Shown here: positions 10,295 to 56,877 of the stretch, piece by piece
Layout: the number at the start of each line of letters is the position of its first letter
How positions within the stretch are numbered: the stretch's first letter is position 1
Source: Azonexus sp.
GTDB taxonomy: Bacteria > Pseudomonadota > Gammaproteobacteria > Burkholderiales > Rhodocyclaceae
Reading direction: 5' to 3'
Assembly: GCA_017983755.1 (NCBI GenBank)
Contig: JAGOAU010000006.1
Span: 91,233 to 155,232 of the forward strand
DNA: 64,000 bases
The notes under the pieces: model-generated
Told to the model about the DNA's origin: nothing
The model's input: the letters and a program-made list of their open reading frames with translations, nothing else
The model's database searches: none
Position numbers and translations under genes: made by a program

Positions 10295-11262
10295 CTTTTC
10301 GGCAGGTAGAGCGAAGGATCGATCGGCTTGCCCTGCTTGCGAATCTCGAAATGCAGCTTCACCGATTCGCTGTCGGTATTCCCCATTTCGGCGATCTTCT
10401 GGCCGCGCGTCACCTGCTGGCCTTCCTTGACCAGTATCTTGCGGTTGTGTGCGTAAGCCGAGAGGAAGGTCGCGTTGTGCTTGACGATCACCAGTTCGCC
10501 GTAGCCGCGCAAGCCGGCGCCGGCATAGACGACCTTGCCGTCGGCCGCCGCCTGCACGGGGTCGCCGGACTTGCCACCAAAATCGAGCCCCTTGTTGCCG
10601 GCATCGCTGTAGCCGTTGGTCACCTTGCCGGATGACGGCCACTGCCATGCCACATCGTCGGAGCCGACCGCCGCCGGTTCCGCCCTGGGTTCCGGCTTCG
10701 CCTCGGGCGGCGGCTCGGTTTTTGGCTCTGGCTTGGGGTCGACCGCAGCAAGCGTCGTTTTCGGTGCCGCCTCGCCGCTCCGGTTCAGGCGCGCATATGC
10801 CTCATCGGAATACGGCTCCTTGCCACCGCGCGGCTCGCGCTTGAGCCCTTCAGTGGACGTCGAAGTCGTCGGGGCAGGAGCGCTGACGACCTTGCCCGGC
10901 GCATCCAGCGATTGCGTCTCGACGACCGGCGCCGTCACCACCGGCTGGGCGACGACCGGGCCGCCGGCCGCAGCAGGAGCCGCACCCGGCGGTGCCACGC
11001 GCAACACCTGACCTTCGCGGATCGATCCCGGATTGGTAATGTTGTTCCACGCCGCCACGTCCTTGTAATCCTGGCCGTGCTCGAGGGCGATGCGGTACAG
11101 GGTGTCGCCGCGCTTGACCGTGTAATACCCGGGGCCCGAGGGCGTTGCCACGGCACTCTGGCGCGCCTGCCCCGAACTGCGATCGACGGTCGGTGCCGGC
11201 GGCTGGGACATGCAACCCGCCAACAGCATGGCGGCAACCAATGGGACAAATGCGCGAATCAT
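10291..11262 (-). CDS. nlpD: NlpD-like LysM/M23 lipoprotein, amidase activator
   Basis: An outer-membrane lipoprotein of 323 residues. The signal peptide ends in a LAGC lipobox with Cys17. A LysM peptidoglycan-binding domain is at about 47-90, then a long Pro/Ala/Glu-rich linker, and a C-terminal M23 (LytM) domain at about 210-320. The first zinc ligand expected as HxxxD is Asn (NKGLDF), while YAHN and LHFEIR remain. This is the pattern of non-catalytic NlpD/EnvC proteins that activate AmiC-type amidases in cell division. A copy of the dispersed bipartite motif lies in the linker at 10716-10747. Confidence 0.92.
   Translation of the reverse strand: MIRAFVPLVAAMLLAGCMSQPPAPTVDRSSGQARQSAVATPSGPGYYTVKRGDTLYRIALEHGQDYKDVAAWNNITNPGSIREGQVLRVAPPGAAPAAAGGPVVAQPVVTAPVVETQSLDAPGKVVSAPAPTTSTSTEGLKREPRGGKEPYSDEAYARLNRSGEAAPKTTLAAVDPKPEPKTEPPPEAKPEPRAEPAAVGSDDVAWQWPSSGKVTNGYSDAGNKGLDFGGKSGDPVQAAADGKVVYAGAGLRGYGELVIVKHNATFLSAYAHNRKILVKEGQQVTRGQKIAEMGNTDSESVKLHFEIRKQGKPIDPSLYLPKR
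10716..10747 (-). repeat. Dispersed bipartite motif, exact copy in nlpD
   Basis: On the minus strand TGCGGTCGACC is followed by 12 bases and CAAAAACCG. The last two spacer bases are GC, giving GCCAAAAACCG. Both halves match the consensus exactly. The copy codes for part of the Pro/Glu-rich NlpD linker. Confidence 0.8.
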
Positions 11263-11921
11263 TGTGTTCCTGCGAGAAGAGGGACAAAGCGAACGGGATC
11301 GAGCCGGGTTTCGACAAAAGCCTGCGGCTTCCGTTCGATGAACGAAAGATACTGCTCAGTCGTGCCAACTGGCAAGACCAGCCGGCCGCCGAGCGCCAGT
11401 TGTTCAAGCAGTGCCGGCGGCACTTTCAGACCAGCCGCGGCGACGATGATGCTGTCAAACGGCCCTGCCTCGGGCAAACCGAACTGCCCATCGGCATGCT
11501 TGAGCCGCACATTGAACTGCTTCAGCTGGCGCATGTTGGCCTTGGCCTTTTCCAGCAGCGGCCCGAGCCGTTCAAGGGAATAAACCTCGGTGGTCAGTTG
11601 CGCCAGCACCGCCGCCTGGTAGCCGCACCCGGCACCGACTTCCAGCGTCCTGCCCAGCGAAGACCGGCCGTTGAGCAGCAACTCGATCATGCGTGCAACC
11701 ACGAAGGGTTGTGAAATCGTCTGGCCCATGCCCAGTGGCAGGGCCGTGTCTTCATAGGCACGCGATGCCAGCGCTTCCTCGACGAAAACGTGGCGCGGCA
11801 CCGCCGCCATGGCCCGCAGCACCGCCTCGTTGCGGATGCCCTTCTCGCGCAGGCGCTCGATCATGCGCGCCCGCGTCCGCTGCGACGTCATCCCGATGCC
11901 GTGCAGGCCGTTGGTCGTCAT
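11259..11921 (-). CDS. pcm: Protein-L-isoaspartate O-methyltransferase
   Basis: Pcm methylates isoaspartyl residues in damaged proteins using S-adenosylmethionine. The 220-residue protein contains [11 protein letters not shown], the family motif for substrate binding, and the SAM-binding [13 protein letters not shown]. It overlaps both surE upstream and nlpD downstream by four bases. This makes surE-pcm-nlpD-rpoS one probable transcription unit, the common stress and repair cluster. Confidence 0.96.
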
Positions 11922-12658: not shown

Positions 12659-12660
12659 CG

Positions 12661-12975: not shown

Positions 12976-13040
12976 GATTACCTCCTTTAATAAAATGGTG
13001 GAAACAATCTAATTTGTCTTAATATATTTTTCAACAGATA

Positions 13041-13066
13041 AAATTAAAAAACCGGCATAAGCCGGT
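13041..13066 (-). terminator. Intrinsic terminator after tRNA-Pro
   Basis: ACCGGC and GCCGGT pair around an ATAA-type loop (13051-13066). On the minus strand TTTTTAATTT follows, eight bases past the tRNA 3' end. Confidence 0.75.
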
Positions 13067-13074
13067 TAATTAAT

Positions 13075-13162: not shown

Positions 13163-13191
13163 ATTATACCCGAAATGCCCGGGAATCAAAG
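13163..13191 (-). promoter_or_regulatory. Promoter of tRNA-Pro
   Basis: Minus strand: TATAAT at 13163-13168 with CTTTGA 17 bases upstream (13186-13191). The -35 region overlaps the last codons of the MerR-family gene. Confidence 0.55.
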
Positions 13192-13563
13192 GCGCAACAT
13201 CTCGATAACGTATTGCAATTCGGCGCGCAGGCCGCCAACGGTTTTTGGCATTTCCTGATGGTCGACCGCAACAGCCCCAGCCACATCACCTTCGTCCAGC
13301 TTGTTGCGCGCGCCGCTGATCGTAAAGCCCTGATTATAAAGAAGCTCACGGATGCGTCGAACGAGCAGGACTTCATGATGCTGGTAATAACGACGATTGC
13401 CGCGCCGTTTGACCGGCTTGAGCTGATTGAATTCCTGTTCCCAGTAGCGCAGGACGTGCGGCTTGACGCCGCACAATTCGCTGACTTCACCGATGGTGAA
13501 ATAGCGCTTGGCCGGAATCGGTGGCAACTCCTCGCCACCGTGAGGCTTATGCCGCTGTTCCAT
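13186..13563 (-). CDS. MerR family transcriptional regulator (ihfA-linked)
   Basis: A 125-residue MerR-type regulator. The winged helix-turn-helix is at about residues 20-90, with [22 protein letters not shown] as its first helices and RRGNRRYY in the wing. The C-terminal part is short and lacks the Cys pattern of metal sensors. It overlaps the 3' end of ihfA by 17 bases. This merR-after-ihfA order is common in proteobacteria, but the role of the protein is not established. An exact copy of the dispersed motif lies in its C-terminal coding region (13239-13270). Confidence 0.9.
13239..13270 (-). repeat. Dispersed bipartite motif, exact copy in merR-like gene
   Basis: Minus strand TGCGGTCGACC, 12 bases, CAAAAACCG, with GC just before the second half and CTGT before the first. 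It is in the sense direction of the gene. Confidence 0.8.
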
Positions 13564-13863: not shown

Positions 13864-17350
<3,487 letters not shown>

Positions 17351-17364: not shown

Positions 17365-17724
17365 TCAGGCGCCGAGCTGTGCCTTGGCCTGATTGGCCAG
17401 AGCGGCAAAAGCCGGCTGATCGAAGACGGCCAGATCAGCCAGGACCTTGCGGTCGACTTCGATATTGGCCTTCTTCAGGCCGTTCATCAGGGTGCTGTAC
17501 TTCATGCCCAGCTCGCGAGCCGCGGCATTGATACGGGCAATCCACAGCGAACGGAACTGGCGTTTGCGTTGACGACGGTCACGATACTGGTATTGACCGG
17601 CCTTCATCACCGCCTGTTTGGCGATGCGATATACGTTCTTGCGACGACCGCGGTAACCCTTGGCCTGGGCAAGAACCTTCTTGTGACGCGCGCGCGCCGT
17701 TACACCACGTTTGACTCTAGGCAT
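17365..17724 (-). CDS. rplT: 50S ribosomal protein L20
   Basis: A basic 119-residue protein matching L20 along its length ([16 protein letters not shown] start). L20 binds 23S rRNA early in large-subunit assembly and in many bacteria represses its own operon by binding the rpmI leader. It follows rpmI by 11 bases. Confidence 0.99.
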
Positions 17725-20777: not shown

Positions 20778-22082
20778 CTACGCCGCGAAGGCTGCGGTCA
20801 ACGCGGCCACCATGTAGCCATGGTCGAGGACACCGGCGCTTTCGCGGATGCTGTGCATGGCCCACATCGGCGAGCCGACATCAACGCTCGCCACGCCGAG
20901 GCTGGCGGCGACGATGGGGCCGATGGTGCTGCCGCAGCCAAGATCAGTGCGATGCGCATAGTGCTGGTACGGCACGCCTGCCTTCTCGCACAGCATGATG
21001 AAACGCGCCGCGCTGTCGGCGCCAGTGCTGTAGCGCTGGTTGGCGTTGATTTTGATCACCGGACCGCCGTTGACCACAACACGATGGCAGGGCTCGTAGG
21101 CCCCGGGGAAATTCGGGTTAAAGGCGTGCGCCATGTCGGCGCTGATGAAGAAACTGCGGGCCAGTGCACAGCGATAGGCCTCGTCGTCGAGTCCGGCACA
21201 CCCGGCAATCCGCCGCAGCACATCGGCGATGAAGCTGCCGCCGGCACCGGTGGCGCTTTCGCTGCCCACCTCCTCGTGGTCGAAAAAGGCACAGACGTTG
21301 GTCGTCGCGGGATGTTCCGCAGCCAGCAGGGCAGCCAGCCCGGCATGGCAGGAAGCGAGGTTGTCCAGCTGGCTGTCGGCGATGAATTCCCGGCTCGCCC
21401 CCCAGAAGGCGCCCGGCTGCGCATCGCAGGCATTGAGTTCCCAACTCAGGATATCGTCGGCAGCGACGTCCAGTTGCGCCGCCAGCAGGGCATGGAAACG
21501 CCCGTCGGCAGCATCGCCCTCACCCGCCAGCCCTAGCACCAGGGGCAGTTCGGTCTGCTTGTTGAATTTGAGCCCGCTCTCGTTGACCTCGCGGTTCATG
21601 TGGATCGCCAGGTTCGGCAAGCGCAACAGCGGTTGCTGGAAATGCACCAGGCGTAGCGCCGGGCCGGTCGCGGTTCGCACGGCGACGCGCCCGGCCAGGC
21701 CCAGGTCGCGGTCGGCGAAGGTCGCCAGGATCGGCCCGCCGTACACCTCGACGCCAAGGCGCAGCAAGCCGTCGCCAGCCTGCAAGGCCCTGGGCTTCAA
21801 GCGCAGGCCGGGGGAATCCGTATGGGCGCCGACCAGCCTGAAGCCGCTTTCCGACAGCGCTGCGCTACCGGCGACGAAAGCGATGATCGACGAGCCGCCA
21901 CGAATCACGTAATAGCGCCCGCCGGCCGCCAGTTGCCAGCGCTCGTCCTCATTCAGGGCGACAAAGCCGCTGCCCCGCAGGCGCTCGGCAAGCGTCTGCA
22001 CCGCATGCCACGGGCTGGGGCTGGCATCGATGAAAGCAAGGAGTTCCTGCGCCAGCGTGCGCGAATCGGCGGATATTTCCAT
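20778..22082 (-). CDS. apeB: M18 family aminopeptidase
   Basis: A 434-residue zinc aminopeptidase of the M18 (aspartyl aminopeptidase) family, which trims N-terminal residues from peptides in the cytoplasm. Metal ligands are visible in GAHTDSPGLRLK, in the DHEEVGS segment, and in the late HSIRE region. I use the ATG giving MEISADS; the frame continues upstream for 162 codons, but that part resembles a low-complexity shadow of the slyX region on the other strand. It ends near the tRNA-Val promoter. Confidence 0.93.
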   Translation of the reverse strand: MEISADSRTLAQELLAFIDASPSPWHAVQTLAERLRGSGFVALNEDERWQLAAGGRYYVIRGGSSIIAFVAGSAALSESGFRLVGAHTDSPGLRLKPRALQAGDGLLRLGVEVYGGPILATFADRDLGLAGRVAVRTATGPALRLVHFQQPLLRLPNLAIHMNREVNESGLKFNKQTELPLVLGLAGEGDAADGRFHALLAAQLDVAADDILSWELNACDAQPGAFWGASREFIADSQLDNLASCHAGLAALLAAEHPATTNVCAFFDHEEVGSESATGAGGSFIADVLRRIAGCAGLDDEAYRCALARSFFISADMAHAFNPNFPGAYEPCHRVVVNGGPVIKINANQRYSTGADSAARFIMLCEKAGVPYQHYAHRTDLGCGSTIGPIVAASLGVASVDVGSPMWAMHSIRESAGVLDHGYMVAALTAAFAA

Positions 22083-23721: not shown

Positions 23722-24531
23722 ATGTCCGTCGATCACTACGAAAACTTCCCCGTAGCTTCCTTCCTCGTCCCGGCGCCGCTGCGTCGGCCGATCGAGGTGA
23801 TCTACCGTTTCGCCCGCAGCGCGGACGATATCGCCGACGAAGGCGACGCCTCGCCCGAGGAACGCCTGGCCGGGCTGGCGGCATACCAGGCGGAACTCGA
23901 CCGCATTGCCGCCGGCGCCGCGCCGCAGACGCCGCTGTTTCTTGCGCTGGCCGATGTCATCCACCGGCATGGGTTGCCGCTTCAGCTATTCCGCGACCTG
24001 CTCGACGCCTTCGCCCAGGATGTCGTCAAGAAACGCTACGCCGACTATCCGGAACTGCTCGACTACTGCCGCCGTTCGGCTAACCCGGTCGGCCGCCTGG
24101 TGCTGCATCTGTTCGACCGCACCGAGCCGGAACATCTGGAGCAATCCGACTGCATCTGCACGGCGCTGCAACTGATCAACTTCTGGCAGGATGTTGCGGT
24201 CGACTGGCAAAAGGACCGTGTTTACATCCCGCAGACCGATTTTCCGCACTTCAGGGTGGGTGAAGCCGACATCGCCGCCGGCCGCTGGTCGGCCAACTGG
24301 GCAGCGCTGATGGATTTCGAGATCGACCGGGCGCAGGCCCTGATGCGGCGAGGCGCCCCGCTGGTCCACGCCCTGCCCGGCCGCCTCGGCTGGGAAATCC
24401 GCCTGACCGTCCAGGGCGGCCTGCGCATCCTCGAACGCATCCGCCAGGTACGCGGCGACGTCTTCCAGCGCCGCCCGCAGCTTGGCAAAAGGGACTGGCT
24501 GGTGCTCGCCGGCCGTTCCCTTACAATGTGA
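23722..24531 (+). CDS. hpnC: Squalene synthase HpnC (hydroxysqualene synthase)
   Basis: HpnC converts presqualene diphosphate to hydroxysqualene in the three-enzyme HpnDCE route from farnesyl diphosphate to squalene. The 269-residue protein has both aspartate-rich motifs of trans-isoprenyl synthases: RSADDIADEGD (about 33-43) and the second around QDVAVDWQKDRVYIP (about 156-170). It is first in a run of seven genes with very short gaps. The second motif coincides with a gapless copy of the dispersed DNA motif (24195-24216). Confidence 0.93.
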   Translation: MSVDHYENFPVASFLVPAPLRRPIEVIYRFARSADDIADEGDASPEERLAGLAAYQAELDRIAAGAAPQTPLFLALADVIHRHGLPLQLFRDLLDAFAQDVVKKRYADYPELLDYCRRSANPVGRLVLHLFDRTEPEHLEQSDCICTALQLINFWQDVAVDWQKDRVYIPQTDFPHFRVGEADIAAGRWSANWAALMDFEIDRAQALMRRGAPLVHALPGRLGWEIRLTVQGGLRILERIRQVRGDVFQRRPQLGKRDWLVLAGRSLTM

Positions 24532-24535
24532 ACCC

Positions 24536-25369
24536 ATGAATCCCCATCAATACTGCCAGGAGAAATGCGCCGCCAGCGGCTCCTCCTTCTATTACAGCTT
24601 CCTTTTCCTGCCCCCCGAGCGCCGGCAAGCCATCATGGCGCTCTACGCCTTCTGCCGCGAAGTCGATGACGTCGTCGACGAATGCAACGATATTTCGATC
24701 GCGTCGACCAAGCTGACTTGGTGGCGCCAGGAAGTCGAGCGCGTCACCGGCGGCCAGCCGACGCATCCGGTGGGATTGGCGCTGCAGGCGGTGAGCGGCC
24801 AGTTCAACCTGCCGAAGGAGCAATTGCTGGAAATCATCGACGGCATGGAGATGGACCTGCAGCAGTCGCGCTATCTCGACTTCAAGAACCTGTCGCTCTA
24901 CTGCTATCGCGTTGCCAGCGTCGTCGGCCTGCTCGCCGCCGAGATCTTCGGCTACCAGGACCGGCAAACGCAGAAATACGCCCACGACCTCGGCATGGCC
25001 TTCCAGCTCACCAACATCATCCGCGACATTGGCGAGGATGCCCGGCGCGGCCGCATCTACCTCCCGATGGATGAGCTCAAGCAGTTCAACGTGCCGGCCG
25101 CCGACATCCTGAACGCCAAATACTCGGACAATTTCACCGCCCTGATGCAGTTCCAGGCCGAGCGCGCCGAGAAATACTACGCCCAGGCTTTTGCCCAGTT
25201 GCCGGCCGTCGACCGCAAGCGCCAGCGCCCCGGCCTGATCATGGCGGCTATCTACCGCACCCTGCTCGACGAGATCAAGCGCGAAAACTTCCAGGTTCTG
25301 CACCAGCGCATCGCCCTGACGCCGGTGCGCAAGCTCTGGATCGCCTGGAAAACCTGGGCCTTCGCGTGA
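24536..25369 (+). CDS. hpnD: Presqualene diphosphate synthase HpnD
   Basis: HpnD condenses two farnesyl diphosphates to presqualene diphosphate. The protein is 277 residues. The first Asp-rich motif is REVDDVVDE (about 41-49) and the second is IRDIGEDARRGRIYLP (about 162-177). I chose the ATG of MNPHQYC, four bases after hpnC; an upstream in-frame start only reads back into hpnC. It overlaps hpnE by four bases. Confidence 0.95.
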   Translation: MNPHQYCQEKCAASGSSFYYSFLFLPPERRQAIMALYAFCREVDDVVDECNDISIASTKLTWWRQEVERVTGGQPTHPVGLALQAVSGQFNLPKEQLLEIIDGMEMDLQQSRYLDFKNLSLYCYRVASVVGLLAAEIFGYQDRQTQKYAHDLGMAFQLTNIIRDIGEDARRGRIYLPMDELKQFNVPAADILNAKYSDNFTALMQFQAERAEKYYAQAFAQLPAVDRKRQRPGLIMAAIYRTLLDEIKRENFQVLHQRIALTPVRKLWIAWKTWAFA

Positions 25370-26604
25370 AAGTCGCCGTCATCGGCGGCGGCTGGGCGGG
25401 CATCGCCGCCGCTGTCGAACTGACGGCAAGCGGCGCCACCACCACCCTGTACGAAGCCGGCCGTGCCCTCGGCGGACGGGCGCGCTCGATTGCCATCGAC
25501 GGCCGCACACTGGATAACGGCCAGCACATTCTGCTCGGCGCCTACCGCGACACGCTGGCCCTGATGCGCCAGGTCGGCGCCGACCCCGAACTGCTGCTGG
25601 AACGACGCCCGCTGCAGGTCGTCGATCACACCGGCTTCCGTCTGGCGCTGCCGAAATGGCCGGCGCCGCTCAACGTCGCCTGGGGCCTGCTGTCGGCCCG
25701 CGGCGTCGGCTGGCGCGAAAAGCTGGCGACCGCCTGGTGGATGCAGGGCATCAAGGCTCGCCGTTTCCGCCTGGACGAGGATTGCAGTGTCGCCGAATGG
25801 CTGGACGCCGCCGGCCAGACCGGCGCCTTGCGCCACCACCTGTGGGAACCGCTCTGCCTCGCCGCGCTCAACATCCCCGCCGGGCGCGCCTCGGCCCAGG
25901 TCTTCGCCAACGTGCTGCGCGACAGCCTGGGCAGCGCCCGGCGCGAAGATACCAATCTGCTGCTGCCGCGCGTCGCCCTGGGGCAACTGCTGCCGGAACC
26001 GGCGACACGCTGGTTCGCGGCCAGCGGTGCGACGCTGCGCCTCGGCCACCGTGTCGCCAACTTCGCCCCGCTACCGCATGGCATCGCGGTCGATGGCGAA
26101 ATCCACGATGCTGCGGTCGTCGCCACCGCCCCGCAGCACGCCGGCAAACTATGGCCGGCGCTCGCCGCCGATTTCGATCACGAGCCAATCGTTACGGTCT
26201 ACCTACAATTCGCGGCAAAAACCAGTCTCGCCTTTCCCCTGCAAAAGCAGTCCGGAAACTACGGTCAATGGGTCGTCGACCGCGGCAATGGCCTGCTCGC
26301 CTGCGTGCTCAGCGGCCATGGCGACTGGGAAGCCCTCGCCGAAGCCGAACTGGTCGCCGCGCTCGTCGCGGAACTCGCCCTGCCGACGCTGCCCACCTGG
26401 ACCAGGGTCATCTGCGAGAAGCGCGCCACCTTCGCCTGTCGCCCGAACCTCGCGCGCCCCGATCACCGCACGCCCGACCCGCGCATCCTGCGCGCCGGCG
26501 ACTACAGCTGGGCCGATTACCCGGCGACGCTGGAAGGCGCCGTGCGCAGCGGCCGCCGCGCTGCCCACGCCCTGCTTCGAAATGGCTATAATCCGGCGTC
26601 ATGA
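25366..26604 (+). CDS. hpnE: Hydroxysqualene dehydroxylase HpnE
   Basis: HpnE is an FAD-dependent amine-oxidase-fold enzyme that reduces hydroxysqualene to squalene. The 412-residue protein begins MKVAVIGGGWAGIAAA, a dinucleotide-binding Rossmann motif, and ends with the second FAD contact GDYSWADYPATLEGAVRSG. The start is GTG overlapping the hpnD stop. Its own stop overlaps the pgaA start as ATGA. No squalene-hopene cyclase gene is in this window. A degenerate copy of the dispersed motif is at 26193-26224. Confidence 0.94.
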   Translation: MKVAVIGGGWAGIAAAVELTASGATTTLYEAGRALGGRARSIAIDGRTLDNGQHILLGAYRDTLALMRQVGADPELLLERRPLQVVDHTGFRLALPKWPAPLNVAWGLLSARGVGWREKLATAWWMQGIKARRFRLDEDCSVAEWLDAAGQTGALRHHLWEPLCLAALNIPAGRASAQVFANVLRDSLGSARREDTNLLLPRVALGQLLPEPATRWFAASGATLRLGHRVANFAPLPHGIAVDGEIHDAAVVATAPQHAGKLWPALAADFDHEPIVTVYLQFAAKTSLAFPLQKQSGNYGQWVVDRGNGLLACVLSGHGDWEALAEAELVAALVAELALPTLPTWTRVICEKRATFACRPNLARPDHRTPDPRILRAGDYSWADYPATLEGAVRSGRRAAHALLRNGYNPAS

Positions 26605-42058: not shown

Positions 42059-43387
42059 ATGAAGCGCACGTCCATCACCCTCGCCCTCCTGCCACTCGGC
42101 CTGTGGGGTCTCTTCGTTCTCCCCGACCTGCTCGCCAGCAACCCCGGTTTCTGGAACTGGCGGCGCGCCATCGTCATCCTCTCCGGCATCCTCGCCCTGT
42201 GGTGGATGAGCGCCGGCATCATCCTCGCCGCCCGTCCGCGCTGGCTCGAACAGCGCCTCGGCGGGCTGGACAAGCTCTACCTGTGGCACAAGTACCTCGG
42301 CATCGGCGGCGGCATTCTGGTTTTCACCCACTGGATGAGCGAATGGCTGCCCAAGAACCTAGCCCGCGCCGGCTTCATCGCGCCCCGCCCGCGCGGTGCC
42401 GGTCCCAAGGGCCCGCCGGATTTCTGGGTGGAACTGGCCAAGGACGTCGGCGAATGGGCCGGCTACATCCTGCTCGCGCTGGTCGTCATCGCCCTCGTCA
42501 AACGCATTCCTTACCGCTGGTTCCGCTTGGTGCACAAAGCCTTCGGCGCCGTCTTCCTAGCCGGGGTCTTCCACGGCCTGATGATGCTGCCCGGCAGCTT
42601 CTGGCAACAGCCGCTCGGCTGGCTGACCGCCCTGCTCGCCACTGCCGGTGTCGTCCCGGCCGTGCTTTCGCTGAGCGGACGCATCGGCCGTCCGCACCAA
42701 TACCCGGCGCAAATCGAAGCCCTGCACCAGCACGGCGACGGCATCCTCGAAGTCATCTGCCGCCCGCACAACGACTGGCCCGGCCACCGTGCCGGCCAGT
42801 TCCTGCTGGCCAACTTCGGCACCACCGCCGAAGGCGCCCACCCCTTCACCATCGCCTCCGCCTGGCAGCGCCAGACCGGCACCCTCACCCTCGCCATCAA
42901 GGCGCTCGGCGACTTCACCCGCCAGCTCCCGCAAACCCTGCACGTTGGCCAAACCATCCAGCTTGAAGGCCCCTACGGGAATTTTGATTTTTGCCCTTCC
43001 GGAGCAGTCGACCGCAACAGGGGCCCGGCGCCACAAATCTGGGTCGCCGGTGGCATCGGCATCACGCCCTTCCTCGCCCGCCTCAAGGACCGCATCGCCC
43101 GCAACTCAACCGTCACCGAAACCGACCTCTTCTACTGCACTCCGCACGCCACCGCCTACCCGGAAAACCTCGAAAGCCTCTGCCAGCAAGCCGGCGTCCG
43201 CCTGCACCGCCGCCTGACCAACGAACAAGGCCCACTCGACCCCGCCGACATCGAAGCCCGACTAAAACTCGGCACCAGCATCTGGTTCTGCGGCCCGAGC
43301 GGTTGGGGTGAAGCGCTGGCAAAAACGCTGACCGGCAACGGCCTGCCGCGCGGCGCGTTTCACCGGGAGGCATTCGAGTTTCGTTAA
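42059..43387 (+). CDS. Ferric reductase-like transmembrane flavoprotein (ferredoxin reductase-type)
   Basis: A 442-residue membrane oxidoreductase. The N-terminal ferric-reductase-like region has about six membrane segments (10-215), with haem-ligand-type His in WHKYLG and THWMSEW. The C-terminal part (about 220-442) has FAD-binding HPFTIAS and NAD-binding VAGGIGITPFLARL motifs, as in NADPH oxidase-like ferredoxin reductases. Its electron acceptor cannot be told. A copy of the dispersed motif (42985-43016) lies antisense in the loop between the FAD and NAD parts, where the protein reads CPSGAVDRNRG. Confidence 0.88.
   Translation: MKRTSITLALLPLGLWGLFVLPDLLASNPGFWNWRRAIVILSGILALWWMSAGIILAARPRWLEQRLGGLDKLYLWHKYLGIGGGILVFTHWMSEWLPKNLARAGFIAPRPRGAGPKGPPDFWVELAKDVGEWAGYILLALVVIALVKRIPYRWFRLVHKAFGAVFLAGVFHGLMMLPGSFWQQPLGWLTALLATAGVVPAVLSLSGRIGRPHQYPAQIEALHQHGDGILEVICRPHNDWPGHRAGQFLLANFGTTAEGAHPFTIASAWQRQTGTLTLAIKALGDFTRQLPQTLHVGQTIQLEGPYGNFDFCPSGAVDRNRGPAPQIWVAGGIGITPFLARLKDRIARNSTVTETDLFYCTPHATAYPENLESLCQQAGVRLHRRLTNEQGPLDPADIEARLKLGTSIWFCGPSGWGEALAKTLTGNGLPRGAFHREAFEFR
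42985..43016 (-). repeat. Dispersed bipartite motif, near-exact copy
   Basis: Minus strand TGCGGTCGACT, 12 bases ending GG, CAAAAATCA, with CTGT before the first half. It lies antisense in a ferric-reductase-like gene. Confidence 0.65.
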
Positions 43388-44378: not shown

Positions 44379-45253
44379 GCGACAGCAGCGTTCGCCGCTT
44401 CCTGTTCGAACACCTAGACATTCGCGGCGCCATCGTCCATCTCGGCGATTCCTGGCAGCAAATGCAGGTCGACCGCAACTATCAGCCGACCGTCGCCCAG
44501 TTGCTCGGCGAAACGGCTGCCGTCACCGCGCTGATCGCCGCCCAGCTCAAGCAGCCCGGGCGCCTGACCCTGCAACTGCGTGGCAACGGCCCGATCCAGC
44601 TGCTGGTCATGGACTGCAACGAGCAGCTGCAGCTGCGCGGCATGGCGCGCAGCAACCCGGTCGTCCTGCCGGCGCCGGTGCCTGCCCTGCTCGGCGCCGA
44701 CCAGGGCGGCCAGCTGATGCTCAGCCTCGACCAGCCGAACGCCCGCCACCCCTACCAGAGCTTCGTGCCGCTGGTCGGCGACAGCATCGCCGCGATCTTC
44801 GAGCATTACCTCGAACAGTCGGAGCAACAGCCATCGCGCCTTTTCGTCAGCGCCGGCCCCAGGGCCGCCGCCTGCCTGTTCCTGCAGAAGATGCCGGATG
44901 CCGATGCCCGCGATGCCGACGGCTGGCACCGCATTACCCAGCTCGCCGCCACCGTCAAACCGGCCGAACTGCTGGAACTCGACGCCGAAGCGCTGCTCGG
45001 CCGCCTCTTCCATGAAGACATGGAAACGCACGGCGTGCGCGTCTACGACCCGGCGCCGGTGGTCTACCACTGCCCGCAGGACTGGACCAAGGTGCGCGAC
45101 ATGATCCGCAGCCTGGGCCGGGACGATGCCGAGACGATCCTGCGCGAACATGGCGAAATCCTGATCCGCGATGACATCTGCAACCACGAATACCGCTTCA
45201 GCGCCGAGGACGTCGCCGAGCTGTTTTCCGACGCCAGCCGGACGCTGCACTGA
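44375..45253 (+). CDS. hslO: Hsp33 family chaperonin with incomplete redox-zinc centre
   Basis: Hsp33 is a cytoplasmic holdase switched on by oxidation of a zinc centre made of CxC and CxxC. The 292-residue protein matches Hsp33 along its length, and the ATG overlaps the ArsC-like stop. The C-terminal switch region aligns with E. coli as C233-P-Q235 in place of CxC and D266-D-I-C269 in place of CxxC. One Cys of each pair is therefore missing. It may be constitutively active or use another switch. The N-terminal substrate-binding domain looks intact. Confidence 0.92.
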   Translation: MSDSSVRRFLFEHLDIRGAIVHLGDSWQQMQVDRNYQPTVAQLLGETAAVTALIAAQLKQPGRLTLQLRGNGPIQLLVMDCNEQLQLRGMARSNPVVLPAPVPALLGADQGGQLMLSLDQPNARHPYQSFVPLVGDSIAAIFEHYLEQSEQQPSRLFVSAGPRAAACLFLQKMPDADARDADGWHRITQLAATVKPAELLELDAEALLGRLFHEDMETHGVRVYDPAPVVYHCPQDWTKVRDMIRSLGRDDAETILREHGEILIRDDICNHEYRFSAEDVAELFSDASRTLH

Positions 45254-46503: not shown

Positions 46504-46535
46504 TGCGGTCGACCGGCAAATAACGGCCAAAATGA
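46504..46535 (+). repeat. Dispersed bipartite motif, intergenic copy
   Basis: TGCGGTCGACC, 12 bases ending GG, CCAAAATGA, with CTGT before the first half. The bases straight after the first half (GGCAAATAACG) also resemble the second half, so it fits the gapless class as well. It lies between the DUF2058 and DUF3616 genes, outside coding sequence. Confidence 0.65.
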
Positions 46536-47574: not shown

Positions 47575-48965
47575 ACGATCTTGCCCGGATTCATCAGCCC
47601 GCGCGGGTCAAGCGCCTGCTTGAGCGTGCGCATCAGGGCGATCTCGACCGGGCTCTTGTAGCGCAGCAATTCCTCGCGCTTGAGCTGGCCGATGCCGTGC
47701 TCGGCGGAAATCGACCCGCCCAGGGCGTCGACCGCGTCATGCACGAGGCGATTGACCGTGGGCTGGGCGGCGATGAAGGCGGCGTTGTCCTGGGCGTCCG
47801 GCTTCGACAGGTTGTAGTGCAGATTGCCGTCGCCGACATGCCCGAAGGCGACGACGCGAATGCCGTGGAAGGCGGCCGCCAGCGCAGCATCGGCGCGCGC
47901 CAGGAAATCGGGGATGCGCGACACCGGAACCGCGATGTCGTGCTTGATGCTGATGCCCTTGATCTTCTGCGCTTCCGAAATGTGCTCGCGCAGCGACCAC
48001 AGCTTCGCGGCCTGCGCCTGCGACCGGGCGACGACGCCGTCGCCAGCCTCGCCCGCTTCCAGACGGTCGGCCAGCCAGCCCTCGACGGCGTCCGGATCGG
48101 CATCGGAGAACTCGGCCAGCACGTACCACGGACTCGCCGCGGTCGGCCGCGCGGCGCCGGGGATGTGCTGCAGCACCAGGCCGAGCGCCGTTTCGGAAAC
48201 CAGCTCGAAGGCAGTCAGCCGGGCATCGAACGCGGTTTTTGCCCGATTCAGCAGGTCGACCGCAGCCGCCGGCGTCGCTACGTTGAGCCAGCAGGTGGTC
48301 TGCACCTGCGGCAGCGGAAACAGCTTGAGCACCGCCGCCGTGATGATGCCGAGCGTGCCCTCGGCGCCGATGAACAGGTGCTTCAGGTCGTAGCCGGTGT
48401 TGTCCTTGCGCAGGCCGCGCAGACCGTTCCAGATTTCGCCGCTCGGCAGCACGACTTCGAGGCCGAGCGTCAGGTCGCGGGTGTTGCCGTAGCGCAGCAC
48501 CTGCACGCCGCCGGCGTTGGTCGAGAGATTGCCGCCAATCTGGCACGTGCCTTCCGAGGCGAGCGCCAGCGGGAACAGGCGGCCAGCGGCGCGCGCGGCG
48601 TCCTGCACCGCCGCCAGCGTGCAGCCGGCCTCGACGGAAATGGTGTCGTTTTTCGCGTCGACCGCAAGGATGCGGTTGAGGCGGCCGAGGCCGACGACCA
48701 CCGCCCGGCCCTCGCCATCCGGTGTCGCCGCGCCGCACAGGCTGGTATTGCCGCCCTGCGGGACGATCGGCGCGCCCGCCGCGACGCAGGCCCTGACGAC
48801 CGCCGCCACGTCGGCGGCGGTGCCCGGACGCACGACGCAGCGCGCGGCACCGCGGTAGCGGCCGCGCCAGTCGGTCAGATACGGCGCAAGGTCGGCGGCA
48901 GCGGTCAGCACGTGGGCCGGACCGACGATGGCGACGAGTTCGGCGAGCAGCGCGTCGGTCGTCAT
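47571..48965 (-). CDS. FAD-binding oxidoreductase (GlcD / D-2-hydroxyacid dehydrogenase type)
   Basis: A 464-residue flavoprotein of the vanillyl-alcohol-oxidase superfamily. The FAD-binding part (about 35-215) has PQGGNTSLCG, GGNLSTNAGG and GAEGTLGIIT. The C-terminal FAD-oxidase domain has the HVGDGNLHYN metal-site motif and ends SISAEHGIGQLKR-type. D-lactate, glycolate and D-2-hydroxyglutarate dehydrogenases share this layout, and the substrate cannot be chosen here. It overlaps or abuts the patatin gene. It contains one exact copy (48233-48264) and one gapless copy of the dispersed motif. Confidence 0.92.
   Translation of the reverse strand: MTTDALLAELVAIVGPAHVLTAAADLAPYLTDWRGRYRGAARCVVRPGTAADVAAVVRACVAAGAPIVPQGGNTSLCGAATPDGEGRAVVVGLGRLNRILAVDAKNDTISVEAGCTLAAVQDAARAAGRLFPLALASEGTCQIGGNLSTNAGGVQVLRYGNTRDLTLGLEVVLPSGEIWNGLRGLRKDNTGYDLKHLFIGAEGTLGIITAAVLKLFPLPQVQTTCWLNVATPAAAVDLLNRAKTAFDARLTAFELVSETALGLVLQHIPGAARPTAASPWYVLAEFSDADPDAVEGWLADRLEAGEAGDGVVARSQAQAAKLWSLREHISEAQKIKGISIKHDIAVPVSRIPDFLARADAALAAAFHGIRVVAFGHVGDGNLHYNLSKPDAQDNAAFIAAQPTVNRLVHDAVDALGGSISAEHGIGQLKREELLRYKSPVEIALMRTLKQALDPRGLMNPGKIV
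48233..48264 (-). repeat. Dispersed bipartite motif, exact copy in FAD dehydrogenase gene
   Basis: Minus strand TGCGGTCGACC, 12 bases ending GG, CAAAAACCG. It is in the sense direction of the gene and codes for AVDLLNRAKT. Confidence 0.8.
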
Positions 48966-49846: not shown

Positions 49847-51181
49847 TCAGCCCTGCCGCACGAACTCGGCGTAGAGATCGTGATGATCGGCGTCGATCAC
49901 CCGGACCTTCAGGAAATCGCCCGGTTCGGCGTCGAAATGGCCATCGATGTAGACCAGGCCGTCGATTTCCGGCGCGTCGGCCTTGGAGCGGGCGATGGTG
50001 CCTTCCTCGTCGACCGCATCGACCAGCACCTCGATCTCGTTGTCGATCTTGGCGGCCAGCTTCTCGGCGCTGATGTCTTCCTGCACCTGCATCAGCCAGC
50101 GGCGACGATCCTCGCGCACGTCTTCCGGCGGCAGGCCGGCGAGTTCGTTGGCCTTGGCGCCGTCGACCGGCGAGTAGGCGAAGGCGCCGACACGATCCAG
50201 TTTCGCGTCTTCCAGGAACTGGATCAGCTGGTCGAAATCCTCGTCGGTCTCGCCGGGGAAGCCGGTGATGAAGGTCGAGCGGATGACAATTTCCGGGCAG
50301 ATTTCGCGCCACTTGGCGATGCGTTCCAGCGTGTTCTCGGCCGAGGCCGGGCGCTTCATCGCCTTGAGAATCTTCGGGCTGGCGTGCTGGAAGGGCACAT
50401 CGAGGTAGGGCAGGAGCTTGCCGTCGGCCATCAGCGGAATGACATCGTCGACCGAAGGATACGGGTAGACGTAGTGCAGGCGGACCCAGATGCCGAAGCT
50501 GGCCAGCGCCTCGCACAATTCTTTCAGGCGCGACTTGACCGGCTTGCCGCCCCAGAAGCCGGTGCGGTACTTGAGATCGACGCCGTAGGCGCTGGTGTCC
50601 TGCGAGATGACGAGAATCTCCTTGACGCCGGCACGCGCCAGATTCTCGGCCTCGGCCAGCACGTCGCCGACCGGCCGCGAGACGAGCGGTCCGCGCAGCG
50701 ACGGGATGATGCAGAAGGTGCAGCTGTGGTTGCAGCCTTCGGAAATCTTCAGGTAGGCGAAGTGGTCCGGCGTCAGGCGCACGCCCTGCGGCGGCACGAG
50801 GTCGGTGTAGGGATCATGCGGCTTGGGCAGGTGCTGATGAACGTAGCCCATCACCTCGTCGGCGGCATGCGGACCGGTGACGGCGAGCACCGCGGGATGC
50901 GTCGTCTGCACGATGTCACCCTTGGCGCCGAGGCAGCCGGTGACGATGACCTTGCCGTTTTCGTTGAGCGCCTCGCCGATGGCGTCGAGCGATTCCTCGA
51001 CGGCAGCGTCGATGAAGCCGCAGGTATTGACGATGACGAGATCGGAGTCGTCGTAGCTCGGCGAGATCTCATAGCCTTCGGCGCGCAGCTTGGTCAGGAT
51101 GCGCTCGGCGTCGCTGCCGGCTTTCGGGCAACCCAGGGAAACAAAGCCGACGGTCGGCACTTTCGTAGTCAAATTCTTCAC
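49847..51181 (-). CDS. rimO: Ribosomal protein S12 methylthiotransferase RimO
   Basis: RimO is a radical-SAM enzyme that adds a methylthio group to Asp of ribosomal protein S12. The protein has the N-terminal UPF0004 domain with three cluster cysteines (SLGCPK, VNTCGF, VTGCLG), the radical-SAM CNHSCTFC motif, and a C-terminal TRAM domain. The start is uncertain: I use GTG at 51181 (444 residues, the family length). An ATG at 51259 is also in frame but would read through a terminator hairpin and add 26 unrelated residues. Confidence 0.94.
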
Positions 51182-51718: not shown

Positions 51719-54700
51719 TCAGTGGAAATCCCGGCTGCGCGTCTCCAGCCGCCCCAGCCAGGCGGAAAGATCGACCAGTCGCTTGGCGACCAGGTGCACC
51801 ACCTCGCCCGCCACCTGCAGTTGCCCGTAGACGCCGAGCAGCGTCGCGCCGAGCAGTTCGCGGCGCTGCTTCTCGACCAGCCAGGGCTGGACGACAACGT
51901 TGGTCAGGCCGCTTTCGTCTTCCAGCGTGACGAAGACGATGCCGGTCGCCGTACCCGGCCGCTGGCGGCCGACGACGATGCCGGCGGCACGGACCAGGGC
52001 GCGGTCGCCGCTGGCGCGCAGGGCGTCGGCAGACAGGAAGCGGCGTTCGGCGAGATGCTGGCGTAGCAGGGCCAGCGGGTGGCGGCGCAGGGTCAGGCCG
52101 AGGCTGCGGTAATCGGCGACGAGATTTTCGCCTTCCTCCGGGGCCGCCAGATTCACCGCCGCCTCGCGTGCCGGCTGGCCGGCGAACAGGTCACCCTGCA
52201 CCGCCATATTTTCTGCGCTTGCCGACCATGCTGCCTGGCGGCGATGGCCGGCCAGGCTCTGCAAGGCATCGGCGGCGGCCAGCAGGTCGAGATCGCGGCG
52301 CGTCAGCCCGGCCCGCGCGGCAAGATCGGCCACACTGGAAAACGGCCGTTTTTGCCGGTCGACCGCAACCCGCTCAGCCACTGCCCTTGCCAGCCCGTTG
52401 ATCTCGCGCAAGCCCAGGCGCACGGCACCGCTCGCGTCGACCCGGCCGTCCCAATCGCTGGCCGTGACATCCGGCGGCAGTACGGCGACGCCGTGCCGGC
52501 GCGCGTCCTGGACCAGCATCGAAGGCGAATAGAAGCCCATCGGCTGGCTGTTGAGCAGGCCGCACAGGAAGGCGGCGGGATGATGGCGCTTGATCCAGGC
52601 CGAGGCGTAAACCAGCAGTGCGAAGCTGGCGGCGTGCGACTCGGGAAAGCCGTATTCGCCGAAGCCCTGGATCTGCGCGATGATGCGCCGGGCGAAGCTT
52701 TCCGGCAGGCCGTTCCTGGCCATGCCGGCCAGCAGCTTCTGCTCGAAATGTTCGAGCCCGCCCTTGCGCTTCCAGGCGGCCATCGAACGGCGCAACTGGT
52801 CGGCCTCGCCCGGCGTGAAATCGGCAGCGACGACCGCCAGTTGCATGACCTGTTCCTGGAAAATGGGCACGCCGCAGGTGCGCGCCAGCACGGCATCGAC
52901 TTTTGGCGAAATCTTCTCGATCAGGTTCCGGTCCTTCCGGTTCCGCAAATACGGATGCACCATGTCGCCCTGGATCGGCCCCGGGCGCACCAGCGCCACC
53001 TCGACGACCAGATCGTAATACTTGCGTGGCCGCAGGTGCGGCAGCATCGCCATCTGCGCCCGCGATTCGACCTGGAAGACGCCCATGCTGTCGGCACGGC
53101 AGAGCATGTCGTAGGTCGCCTTGTCGCCTTCGGGAATTTCGTGCATTTCCAGGCGTCGACCGCTGGCCTCCTCGATGAGGTCGAGCATGCGGCGGATCGC
53201 CGACAGCATGCCCAGCGCCAGGATGTCGACCTTCATCAGGCCGACGGCGTCGAGATCATCCTTGTCCCACTGGATCACCGTGCGTTCCGCCATCGCCGTG
53301 TTCTCGACCGGCACCAGCCGCGCCAGCGGCCCGCGCGCGATGACGAAGCCGCCGACATGCTGCGTCAGGTGGCGCGGAAAGCCGCGCAACTGTTCGGCGA
53401 TCCACAGCCATTTCCCGACGCGCGGCGCGTGCGGGTCGAGGCCGAGCTCGGCGAAGCGTTCGGGCAGTTGTTCGCGCTTGTCCCACCAGGCCAGCGAGGC
53501 GGTCAGCGCATCGATCCGGGCGCCGTCAAAACCGAGCGCACGGCCGGCATCGCGCAGCGCCCCCCTGGTCCGGTAGGTGATCAGCGCCGCCGCCAGCGCC
53601 GCCCGTTCGCGGCCGTATTTGCCGTAGATGTAGGCGATGACTTCGGCGCGCCGCTCGTGCTCGAAATCGACGTCGATGTCCGGCGGCTCGCCGCGCTCCT
53701 TCGAGATGAAGCGCTCGAACAGCATTTCCGAGCGCGCCGGATCGACCTCGGTGATGCCGAGCGCGAAACACACCGCCGAATTGGCCGCCGAGCCGCGCCC
53801 CTGGCAGAGGATTTTCTGGCGGCGGGCGAAGCGGACGATGTCGTACACGGTCAGGAAATAGGCTTCGTAGGCCATGCCGGCGATCAGCGCCAGTTCGTGC
53901 TCGATGCGCCCCCGCACCTTGGCCGGCACCTCATCCGGGTAACGCCAGCGCAGGCCGCGCTCGGTCTCCCGGCGCAGCCAGGAGGCGGGCGTCTCGCCGG
54001 CCGGCACGACTTCCTCCGGGTATTCGTAGCGCAGTTCGGCCAGCGAAAAAGTGCATTGCGCGGCGATGTCCAGCGTTGCGGCCAGCAATTCCGGCGGGTA
54101 GAGGCACGCCAGGCGCAGGCGGGTGCGCAGATGCCGTTCGCCGTTCGGGAACAGCGCGTAGCCGGCATCGAAGACCGTGCTCCTGAGGCGCAGCGCGGTC
54201 AGCACGTCCTGCAGCGGACGCCGCGACCGGGCATGCATATGCACGTCGCCGGCGGCGACCAGCGGCAGGCCGCAGGCCGCGCCCAGGGCCTGCAGGGATT
54301 CCAGCCGGGCGCCGTCGTCCGGCCCGGCGTGGAGTTCGACAGCGACCCAGGCGCGGCCGGGAAAGCGTTCGGCCAGCCAGCGTCCGTCGTCGACCGCAGG
54401 TGTCCCGTCCGGCACCCACAGTACCAGGCAATCGGGCACCGCGCCGTTCGGCGAGACGACATTGAGGTCGTGGCGCTGCAAGGTGTAGGCACCCTTCTCG
54501 GCACGCCGCCGGGCCAGCGTGATCAGGGCCGAGAGATTGCCGTAACCCTCGCGGTTCTTCGCCAGAAAGACCAGTTTCAGGCCGTCGACCGTCGTCATCT
54601 CGCTGCCGACGATCAGTTTCAGTCCGGCCTGCTGCGCCGCCTGGTGGGCACGTACGACACCGGCCAGCGAACACTCGTCGCTCAGCGCCAGCGCTGCATA

Positions 54701-54808: not shown

Positions 54809-56231
54809 GCAGGAACCACCCCCGTGCGTCGCGGAACACCCACACCCGTTGCCGCTGCGGGTTGCTGGCGACGAAATAGTCGCGCTGCAGGTCGCCCGCC
54901 GCGCCCGCCTCGCCGGCATCCCACCAGCCGCTCTCGAGACGCTCGCCGCGCGTCAGCAGTTGCAGCGGGCCGTGCCAGTGCGGGCCGTCGGGCCGCTCGG
55001 CCAGGGCCTGCGGTTCGGGCAGCAGCCACAAGGGCCGCGGCGCCGCGAATGCTGCGGTCGACGTCCCGGCCGAGGCAGAATCCGCGGCGACCTCGTATTC
55101 GCGGGTCGCACACTCCGGCCGATGGTCGGCCTGCCGGGCGAGCGCGCGGACCGCACCTTCGCCGAGCCGGGCGCGCAGGCGTTCGAGGCAGGCCGGCGCA
55201 CCCTCGCCGACTGGCGGCTGCTCGAAGAGATGGGCGCTGGCGCCGGGCCTGGCGATCACCTCGTCGGCGGCCAGACGCAAGGCCTCGACCGGCGCCGCCA
55301 GTTGCAGGCGCCCCAGATGCTCGCGCAACAGGCGCAGGAAACGCCCGTCGTCGGCACTCGCCTCGGCTAGGCGCAGGGGCAGCGCGCTGTGCGTGCCATC
55401 GTCGTGCCTCAGGTGCAGCGTGCAGGCACGCGCCAGCAACTGGCGGGCGTGCAGCCAGCCGCTCAGTGCCGCCAGCAGGCGCTGCCCGGCGAAGGCGAGC
55501 GCCTCGGCATGTTCGACGCGGGCCGGCAGGTCGAGATCGCCGGCAAAGCGCTGGGGAAAGACGAAGGGTCTTTGCGGATCGGGCAACTCGCCGCGGGCGC
55601 GCAGCAGGTCGTCGACCGGGCCGTTGCCGAGGCGCCGGCGCAGGCCGGCGGCAGGCACCCCGGCCAGGTCGCCGAGGCGCTGCAGGCCGAAGGCACCCAG
55701 GCGCTCGGGAATCCCGGCCGGCCAGCCGGGCACGGTGCACGGCAGTCCGCCCAGCGCCGCCTGCATGGCCGGCAGCGTCGCATGAATCTCCCGGTTGCCG
55801 GCCTGCGCCAGCCAGCACGCGCCGAGCGGCGTCGGCGCCGCCGCCCAGGCGACCGAATAAGCCTGTTGGGCACAGCCGGCCAGCGCGGCCTCGACGATGG
55901 CCGGCGCCCCGCCGAAGAGGCGCAGGCAGCCGCCGATTTCCAGCAGCAGGCCGGCCGGCGGCGCCAGGCTGACGGTCGGCGTGAAACGCCCGGCCCAGCA
56001 GGCGAGGCTTTCCAGCACCTTCCGTTCGAGCGCCGGGTCGCGCTCGCCGACCGCGAGACCCGGCTGCAGGCCGAGCGCCGTGGACAGTTTCTGGCCGCCG
56101 GCGACCCCGGCTGCGGCCGCCGCCAGGTCGCAGGCCAGCACGCGGCCACGCGCGACGACAACGCTAGGCGAGCGCCGCCAGGGCAGCGCTTCGAGCGGCA
56201 ACAGGGGAAAGTGCAGGGCCAGCCACAACAC
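54792..56231 (-). CDS. imuB: ImuB, inactive Y-family polymerase-like protein
   Basis: ImuB is the adaptor of the ImuA-ImuB-DnaE2 mutasome, binding the beta clamp and DnaE2. The 479-residue protein has the Y-family fold, starting [16 protein letters not shown]. Catalytic acidic residues of true Y-polymerases are absent, as in the family (the start lacks the DxD motif). A DUF6504-like C-terminal region ends ARGWFLHGLFA. It overlaps imuA by 68 bases and dnaE2 by 17 bases. A near copy of the dispersed motif is at 55053-55084. Confidence 0.93.
   Translation of the reverse strand: MLWLALHFPLLPLEALPWRRSPSVVVARGRVLACDLAAAAAGVAGGQKLSTALGLQPGLAVGERDPALERKVLESLACWAGRFTPTVSLAPPAGLLLEIGGCLRLFGGAPAIVEAALAGCAQQAYSVAWAAAPTPLGACWLAQAGNREIHATLPAMQAALGGLPCTVPGWPAGIPERLGAFGLQRLGDLAGVPAAGLRRRLGNGPVDDLLRARGELPDPQRPFVFPQRFAGDLDLPARVEHAEALAFAGQRLLAALSGWLHARQLLARACTLHLRHDDGTHSALPLRLAEASADDGRFLRLLREHLGRLQLAAPVEALRLAADEVIARPGASAHLFEQPPVGEGAPACLERLRARLGEGAVRALARQADHRPECATREYEVAADSASAGTSTAAFAAPRPLWLLPEPQALAERPDGPHWHGPLQLLTRGERLESGWWDAGEAGAAGDLQRDYFVASNPQRQRVWVFRDARGWFLHGLFA
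55053..55084 (+). repeat. Dispersed bipartite motif, near copy in imuB
   Basis: TGCGGTCGACG, 12 bases ending GG, CAGAATCCG (seven of nine in the second half), with ATGC before the first half. It lies antisense to imuB. Confidence 0.5.
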
Positions 56232-56877
56232 GGTTCGTTCTCCTGGGACGGGGAATGGACAGGATCAGCGGCCGTGGCGCCGGCCGGCCGCGGCGCTTGA
56301 CTATGCGCAAGCTCAAACCGCCCTCGCCGGCAGCCAGTGCGATACGCAGCGGCGCCGGCGACGGGCTGCCGGCTGCTGCGGTCGACCGCCATAAACAGGC
56401 AAAAACCGGCCGCCCGGCGGCAGCCAGTTGCAGCCGGCGCAGGGTCCGCGCGTCGAGGCCGGCCGGCGGCCAGGCCAGAACGGCGGCAAAGCCACCGCTG
56501 GCCAGCAACTGCTCCACGCACCATGCCGCCTGCCGGCCGGCGCGGACGACGACCAGCCGCTCCGGCGCCACCCCGGCCGCCGCCCAGGCCGGCGCATGCG
56601 GCAGCCAGGGCGGTGCCACCAGCGCCAGCCAGCCGCCGGCGGCCGACAGCTGCGCCAGAGCCGGCAACAGCAGGCTCAGTTCGCCGAGGCCGCTGCGGTC
56701 GACCAGGATTTCGGTCAGGTTTCCGCGCGGCCAGCCGCCGCCCGGCAGTTCGGCATCCAGTTCGGCATGGCCGCTGGGAATGCCCGCTTCGGTCAGGCCG
56801 GGCAGCGTGTCGCCGCACCAGACGTCGCCTCTGGCCAGCACCTCCGCCAGGGCGACCGGCAACGGCGCGGTAGTCAT
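56164..56877 (-). CDS. imuA: ImuA, RecA-like SOS mutagenesis protein
   Basis: ImuA (SulA/RecA-related) is the first partner of the ImuA-ImuB-DnaE2 mutasome. The 237-residue protein has the RecA-like fold with [27 protein letters not shown] at the N-terminus and no intact Walker A motif, as usual for the family. It overlaps lexA by four bases and imuB by 68 bases. Two copies of the TGCGGTCGAC core lie here, one an exact bipartite motif (56377-56408). Confidence 0.93.
56377..56408 (+). repeat. Dispersed bipartite motif, exact copy in imuA
   Basis: TGCGGTCGACC, 12 bases ending GG, CAAAAACCG, preceded by CTGC. It is antisense to imuA, in a different reading frame from the sense copies. Confidence 0.8.

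Follow-up and report, generated by a model that had tools for sequence, protein, structure and literature searches.

The stretch of DNA analyzed here (the window, 64,000 nucleotides) belongs to the genome of Azonexus sp. (GCA_017983755.1, contig JAGOAU010000006.1, positions 91,233 to 155,232), which is designated G000 and represented by an assembly of 2.5 Mb that is 74% complete. The window contains numerous dispersed copies of a 32-base DNA motif, which is composed of the core TGCGGTC(G/A)AC and two downstream A/T tracts centered at about +16.5 and +27 from the first base of the core. Judged from its sequence and distribution, this motif is likely to be a DNA uptake sequence of the type known from the Pasteurellaceae as uptake signal sequence (USS), which would serve as a self-recognition tag for natural transformation in Azonexus and Dechloromonas. 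A scan of the window with Rfam yielded four tRNAs only.

Copies of the motif in the window

An earlier note on this DNA had reported four exact copies of a bipartite motif with a constant gap, three near copies, and a degenerate one. All four exact copies were found at the positions given there, and their spacers end with GG or GC as claimed. The pattern TGCGGTCGACC-N12-CAAAAACCG matched the window eight times with up to three mismatches, which is beyond chance (0.01 matches expected, mean of 100 dinucleotide shuffles). The near copies at 42985-43016 and 55053-55084 and the degenerate copy at 26193-26224 have three mismatches each, and a further near copy at 44446-44477 had escaped notice. The remaining near copy (46504-46535) is not among the eight matches because its second A-tract begins one base later; it is a member of the wider motif. 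The core TGCGGTCGAC was detected 24 times (0.9 expected under a third-order model), corresponding to a density of the exact 10-mer of 0.375 per kb, and GCGGTCGAC occurred 34 times (1.8 expected from shuffles). The copies described at first are the best examples of a commoner and denser system of sites. In the following list, the eight matches are given first, followed by copies recognized by reading the sequence and by single cores; genes were called with a home-made codon-usage caller, which left 19% of the DNA uncalled.

10716..10747, minus strand: exact bipartite copy (core and second A-tract), within a called gene
13239..13270, minus strand: exact bipartite copy, within a short called gene at 13186-13563
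48233..48264, minus strand: exact bipartite copy
56377..56408, plus strand: exact bipartite copy, whose palindromic center also carries GCGGTCGAC on the opposite strand
42985..43016, minus strand: near copy, three mismatches
44446..44477, minus strand: near copy, three mismatches, absent from the earlier note
55053..55084, plus strand: near copy, three mismatches, outside called genes
26193..26224, plus strand: degenerate copy, three mismatches, core TACGGTCTAC
46504..46535, plus strand: core and two A/T tracts, the second tract one base later
52336..52367, minus strand: core TGCGGTCGAC with AAAAA and TTTT tracts
48635..48666, minus strand: core TGCGGTCGAC with AAAAA and ATTT tracts
24195..24226, plus strand: core TGCGGTCGAC with AAAA and TTT tracts
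25186..25217, minus strand: core TGCGGTCGAC, second tract AAAA
44246..44277, plus strand: core TGCGGTCGAC with AAAAA and AAATT tracts
38622..38653, plus strand: core TGCGGTCGAC with weak tracts
619..628, minus strand: core TGCGGTCGAC
4061..4070, minus strand: core TGCGGTCGAC
14606..14615, minus strand: core TGCGGTCGAC
17448..17457, plus strand: core TGCGGTCGAC
26937..26946, minus strand: core TGCGGTCGAC
32150..32159, plus strand: core TGCGGTCGAC, outside called genes
50009..50018, minus strand: core TGCGGTCGAC
54389..54398, minus strand: core TGCGGTCGAC
56694..56703, plus strand: core TGCGGTCGAC
60487..60496, plus strand: core TGCGGTCGAC
7317..7326, minus strand: variant core TGCGGTCAAC
20793..20802, plus strand: variant core TGCGGTCAAC
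26990..26999, minus strand: variant core TGCGGTCAAC
28358..28367, minus strand: variant core TGCGGTCAAC

Cores of opposite strands overlap at 34527-34538 and 56378-56389 of the window. Because GCGGTCGACCGC is a palindrome, one place can serve both orientations.

Anatomy of the motif

The anatomy was determined in a 464-kb sample of G000, which comprised the window and 20 analyst-chosen stretches of 20 kb from eight contigs. In this sample, TGCGGTCGAC occurred 118 times (7.6 expected, fourth-order Markov model) and the variant TGCGGTCAAC 33 times (2.4 expected); together, they form the set of 151 sites referred to below. TGCGGTCGA and TGCGGTCGAC were at the top of the lists of overrepresented 9-mers and 10-mers, respectively. 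The alignment of the 118 exact cores revealed G at both −6 and −2 in a 5' shoulder whose neighboring positions are rich in pyrimidines. Downstream of the core, a spacer leads to an A-rich tract (+14 to +18); positions +21 to +23 are G or C, and the second A/T tract (+25 to +29) is followed by a C. A leftward extension as CTGY, previously ascribed to most copies, exists as a tendency and not as a rule: position −4 is C in 55% of cases, −3 is T in 42% and G in 38%, −2 is G in 80%, and −1 is a pyrimidine in 88%.

The position of the tracts relative to the core is narrowly defined. AAAA started at +14, +15, and +16 in 30, 37, and 20 of the 151 sites and at +24 and +25 in 25 and 50 sites (0.39 expected per offset); at +18 to +23, it did not start in any of them. 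Any four A/T bases starting at +25 were present in 101 sites compared with 2.8 expected. The tracts are therefore about 10.5 bases apart, which corresponds to one helix turn. The preferred spacing between core and second tract, inferred earlier from a few copies, thus reappears in the sample; the first A/T tract had been missed, and the motif is larger than described.

Distribution within the genome

In the whole of G000, 586 exact cores were counted, distributed almost equally over both strands (295/291), and the same core pattern read backwards, which was used as genome-wide control, gave 13 matches. The excess predicted for the complete genome is evident from these numbers. The 21 stretches of the sample contained on average 6.5 sites per 20 kb with a variance of 6.3 (ratio 0.96), and they did not differ in strand usage (chi-square 18.3, 20 degrees of freedom, p = 0.56). 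Strand parity was also observed in the sum of the 18 genomes in which 300 or more cores were counted (5255 versus 5343, p = 0.40). Among the 151 sites, 61 were located in called genes in sense and 52 in antisense orientation, and 38 were found outside called genes, in accordance with the proposal that the constraint acts on DNA rather than on protein. The Ala-Val-Asp frame was used in 50 of the 61 sense sites. Known uptake sequences include some closely spaced inverted pairs; among the 151 sites, one pair on opposite strands was separated by 4 bases and another, on the same strand, by 53.

Distribution among species and dialects

The genus survey covered 76 genomes of Azonexus and Dechloromonas, which are freshwater and wastewater bacteria in the tagged group. 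The number of exact cores ranged from 18 to 1256. A second dialect, CACGGTCGAC, was found with 886 copies in G147 and 943 in G201, in which the first dialect was present with 90 and 67 copies, respectively; the mixed genomes G156 and G205 contained 471 and 300 copies of CACGGTCGAC. In G147, 34 sites of the second dialect display two tracts ten bases apart. When both dialects were summed, the density extended from background up to 388 per Mb, with 24 genomes at 80 per Mb or more (motif-rich), 33 below 30 per Mb (motif-poor), and 19 in between. A phylogenetic tree of PheT was calculated for 60 of the 76 genomes, 20 of its 57 inner branches being weakly supported. On this tree, rich and poor states must have changed into each other at least 11 times within the one genus, whether by gain or by loss (45 rows counted, 15 genomes of middle density left out).

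GTCRAC and two phased runs of AAA were combined into one pattern, which may count a site repeatedly because its gaps are variable. Counts of this pattern ranged from 86 to 675 in all eight members of the genus that were drawn, versus 2 to 17 for the controls. Outside the genus, among 241 genomes from 67 genera, they did not exceed 25, a value also reached by the controls there. The bare core often exceeded its backwards control in other genera, up to 70 versus 2 in G106 (150 genomes of the family drawn). The exact bipartite pattern (31 bases) was detected in at least 114 stretches among genome contigs, and the titles of the 114 stretches listed named Azonexus, Dechloromonas, Azonexaceae, Rhodocyclaceae, or "Betaproteobacteria bacterium". 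The same pattern had no match in the viral collection, a result of low power that fits an absence from phages. In samples of motif-poor genomes (G150, 100 kb; G165 and G170, 40 kb each; G112, 20 kb), no other core with phased A-tracts was found, the samples being too small to exclude another dialect; the phased pattern was counted 86 times in the complete G112 genome compared with 8 in controls.

The phased pattern occurred 675 times in G175, in which the two known dialects sum up to 394, a ratio above that of G000 or G147. Because of this unusual ratio, a third dialect, perhaps CGCGGTC(G/A)AC, is hinted at in G175. In a 100-kb sample of G147, GTAGCGGGTAG and its shifts were encountered about 21 times (0.1 to 0.6 expected), which might reflect a single tandem array.

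Conservation between orthologous sites

Sites are kept between orthologues more often than control words. G062 and G158 share 93.3% identity across 130,672 aligned bases, and 20 of the 23 alignable sites were kept compared with 340 of 580 10-mers of permuted classes (p = 0.004). The identity amounted to 97.8% in the core and 97.1% in the second tract versus 92.5% in the flanks. For G155 and G189, 95 of 101 alignable sites of a loose class were kept, with 97.4% identity in the core versus 94.5% in the flanks; this second comparison, which has no matched control for the loose class, points in the same direction but more weakly.

Competence genes

Genes for DNA import are widespread among the 76 genomes: ComEC was found in 71, DprA in 75, and ComEA-like genes in 75 (67 above the curated cut-off). 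Pilins of the ComP_DUS type were encoded in 70 and those of the GspH type in 69 genomes. G000 harbors DprA and a ComEA-like gene as well as a run of minor-pilin genes, the products of which match ComP_DUS (Pfam, 2.8e-10), GspH, a pilin N-terminal motif only, PilW, no family, and PilY1. By analogy to ComP and the proposed ComN, as described in the accessible part of PMC12616744, these minor pilins are candidate receptors. The names pheT, ihfA, ispH, pilV, and pilX were assigned by reading translations, and Pfam matches back some of them only.

In G182 and G202, comEC is interrupted at nearly the same residue, and its two parts lie about 33 kb apart:

G182:C33:109525-144033: split comEC region
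G202:C1:2218607-2251879: split comEC region

A large serine recombinase, identified by matches to Resolvase, Recombinase, and zinc-ribbon, is encoded first in the insert of G182, whose G+C content is about 0.51 versus 0.62 in the last 2 kb beyond the insert. A similar-looking protein is encoded at the start of the insert in G202. The comEC frame of G157 begins at the split residue of G182 and G202, and those of G158, G219, G220, and G197 begin at another common residue. Since splits and frame starts coincide across genomes, comEC may be a recurrent integration target. The loose core class was absent from the 33-kb element of G182 and present once in the adjoining comEC, and it was not encountered within the initial 20 kb at the comEC of G202. 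In the motif-poor genome G169 (G169:C1:1959178-1959913), comEC matches lie in two overlapping frames, as if frameshifted.

Comparison with known uptake sequences

The USS of the Pasteurellaceae, according to the consulted sections of PMC1626085, comprises a 9-base core and two downstream AT-rich segments spaced by about a helical turn, which may help kinking. The motif shares several features with it. GCGG, the bases of which are reported as crucial for USS uptake in the available part of PMC7811141, is part of the core; TGCGGT is common to the motif and the Hin core AAGTGCGGT, and GCGGTC is common to the motif and the commonest Apl 10-mer ACAAGCGGTC. This overlap may be due to chance, shared mechanics, or a related receptor. 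Further similarities to the USS, as far as it is described in the parts of PMC1626085 and PMC12616744 that were available, are two A/T-rich tracts that lie 3' of the core and are separated by about a turn of the helix, copies that number in the hundreds and show no orientation bias in genic and intergenic positions, and dialects of subclades. In contrast to the USS, the motif occurs in G+C-rich Betaproteobacteria, and its copy density is about a third. The 9-base core AAGTGCGGT (Hin) or ACAAGCGGT (Apl) is not matched by the cores TGCGGTC(G/A)AC and CACGGTCGAC; the core of the motif is longer and ends in the palindrome GTCGAC, and the second dialect has ACGG instead of GCGG. The tract centers are located about 15.5 and 26 bases past the G of GCGG, compared with about 8.5 and 20.5 in the USS (computed here from the USS as given in the sections available). 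In view of its different, longer core, its more distant tracts, and the unrelated lineage, the motif was not assigned to the Pasteurellaceae USS.

The DNA uptake sequence (DUS) of the Neisseriaceae, which is read by ComP, resembles the motif in its occurrence in Betaproteobacteria with type IV pili, its species dialects, and its high copy number (PMC3630211, in the part available). It differs from the motif in being continuous, with a length of about 13 bases at most, a CTG core, and no flanking tracts, as far as described in the available portions of PMC1626085, PMC12616744, and PMC3630211. The two sequences are unrelated, and the DUS-like core GCCGTCTGAA was not among the top enriched oligomers listed for G000.

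Interpretation

The class of uptake sequences fits better than the others because copy number, strand parity, genic and intergenic sites, a core with phased tracts, dialects, turnover, and conservation are combined in one motif. An uptake target was among several options listed in the earlier note and is the best supported of them. The system probably works like the USS of the Pasteurellaceae. A DNA-binding minor pilin of the type IV pilus would bind the core, which is TGCGGTC(G/A)AC for the majority of motif-rich species and CACGGTCGAC for other species, and the A/T tracts, roughly one and two turns of the helix further downstream, would allow the stiff duplex to bend or melt. Retraction of the pilus could then draw the looped DNA across the outer membrane, after which ComEA, ComEC, and DprA would carry the DNA inward and hand it over to recombination. 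Tags are proposed to accumulate chromosome-wide, in both orientations and in genic as well as intergenic positions, because tagged fragments would be preferentially taken up and recombined. The accepted sequence could drift into dialects, or it could fade once specificity or uptake is lost.

Several results weigh against an uptake sequence. The core density of 0.23 per kb in G000 and 0.34 per kb in G198 is below that of USS and DUS, which is given as about one per kb in the part of PMC1626085 consulted, where a genome with few USS copies, that of H. ducreyi, is also mentioned. Perfect copies outnumber single-mismatch copies in USS and DUS genomes generally and in Hin-type genomes particularly, according to the same sections of PMC1626085; in the G000 sample, 210 single-mismatch cores were found versus 118 perfect ones (68 and 2 in the backwards control). 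Part of the core count is background, as the bare core often exceeds its control in other genera. Uptake sequences are in general more evenly spaced than at random and prefer non-coding DNA. The spacing of the sites looks random and not overly regular at the 20-kb scale. Sites outside called genes are in marginal excess (38 of 151 versus 19% uncalled DNA, p = 0.06, with the home-made caller), and strand parity was departed from in one of the 18 rich genomes (G211, 322/398, p = 0.005 uncorrected). The identity of the first tract between G062 and G158 is 92.2% and thus not above that of the flanks (92.5%); the first tract is therefore without visible constraint in this small set. Concerning the machinery, ComEC was not found in the 74% complete assembly of G000, and many motif-poor genomes retain an intact-looking ComEC. 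Motif density showed no association with a broken comEC, a label assigned by eye to 12 genomes and debatable in some of them (carried by 3 of 23 rich and 8 of 30 poor genomes, p = 0.31). Neither the ComP_DUS nor the GspH family follows the presence of the motif across the genus genomes, as judged by eye; because both match rich and poor genomes alike, which for ComP_DUS pilins is also a difference from the DUS system, the receptor was not singled out.

The random-looking distribution and the turnover also bear on the question of whether the motif is a binding site of a nucleoid, segregation, or replication protein, either in the manner of matS, the FtsK-orienting polar sequences (KOPS), or the sites of SlmA and Noc, or of a new type, with phased A-tracts aiding bending. 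Such a function appears unlikely, even though a dispersed and long motif with a partly palindromic core, helix-phased A-tracts, and conservation between orthologues would suit it. Chi, KOPS, and matS are short dispersed genomic motifs that are strand-polar or regionally restricted. The motif, in contrast, was neither strand-polar nor regional in the 21 stretches of G000 sampled; the strands did not differ among them, and no clustering per 20 kb was seen. Essential sites would not be expected to switch dialect and to pass between rich and poor 11 or more times in one genus. The replication and segregation options of the earlier note are therefore disfavored by equal strands, random-looking density, and the large change in copy number and dialect within one genus. 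A Chi-like signal for recombination hot spots, recognized by RecBCD or AddAB in one orientation, would likewise be present in high copy number and vary in sequence by species. Chi sites, however, are strand-polar and comprise 5 to 8 bases, and the strand parity (heterogeneity p = 0.56) and the long bipartite site with A-tracts make this explanation highly improbable.

Numerous similar short sequences could also arise from a small mobile or copied repeat family, such as repetitive extragenic palindromes or elements resembling miniature inverted-repeat transposable elements. There is little conservation beyond core and tracts, however, the spacers vary, 113 of the 151 sites lie in called genes, and the 20 of 23 alignable sites kept are at orthologous places, so that the chance of such an origin is slighter still. 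Finally, the prevalence of the Ala-Val-Asp frame among the sense sites would be in accordance with an artefact of codon or peptide preference (GCG GTC GAC). We consider this scarcely conceivable in view of the 52 antisense and 38 intergenic sites, the tracts at fixed distances, and the 33 genomes among the 76 of this genus that have a motif density below 30 per Mb.

Implications of a probable uptake sequence in Rhodocyclales

Preference for short motifs in DNA uptake has been credited to two families, Pasteurellaceae and Neisseriaceae, and mucosal habitats rich in host DNA may favor such preferences (PMC1626085 and PMC7811141 for the former, PMC7811141 for the latter, in the sections consulted). 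No owner of uptake sequences beyond the two families is named in the available parts of PMC3630211, PMC13020248, and PMC5217627. No report on uptake sequences in Dechloromonas, Azonexus, or Rhodocyclales was found in the open-access literature, most subscription journals and preprints being outside the scope of this search. We lean towards the view that self-recognizing transformation arose outside these families, in free-living Rhodocyclales, and converged on a GCGG core with two helix-phased A/T tracts.

If this holds true, the tracts would meet a requirement common to pilus-driven uptake, namely kinking or melting of DNA, and would not be a quirk of one receptor. A third, unrelated, and environmental lineage with USS anatomy would put the two-family and the mucosal-habitat ideas to the test, and it would offer an independent view of the role of the AT tracts and a second chance at the USS receptor. 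The dialects and the 11 or more transitions between the rich and the poor state would represent a natural experiment on the rise and fall of uptake signals, and the motif would provide a practical handle for the genetics of wastewater bacteria.

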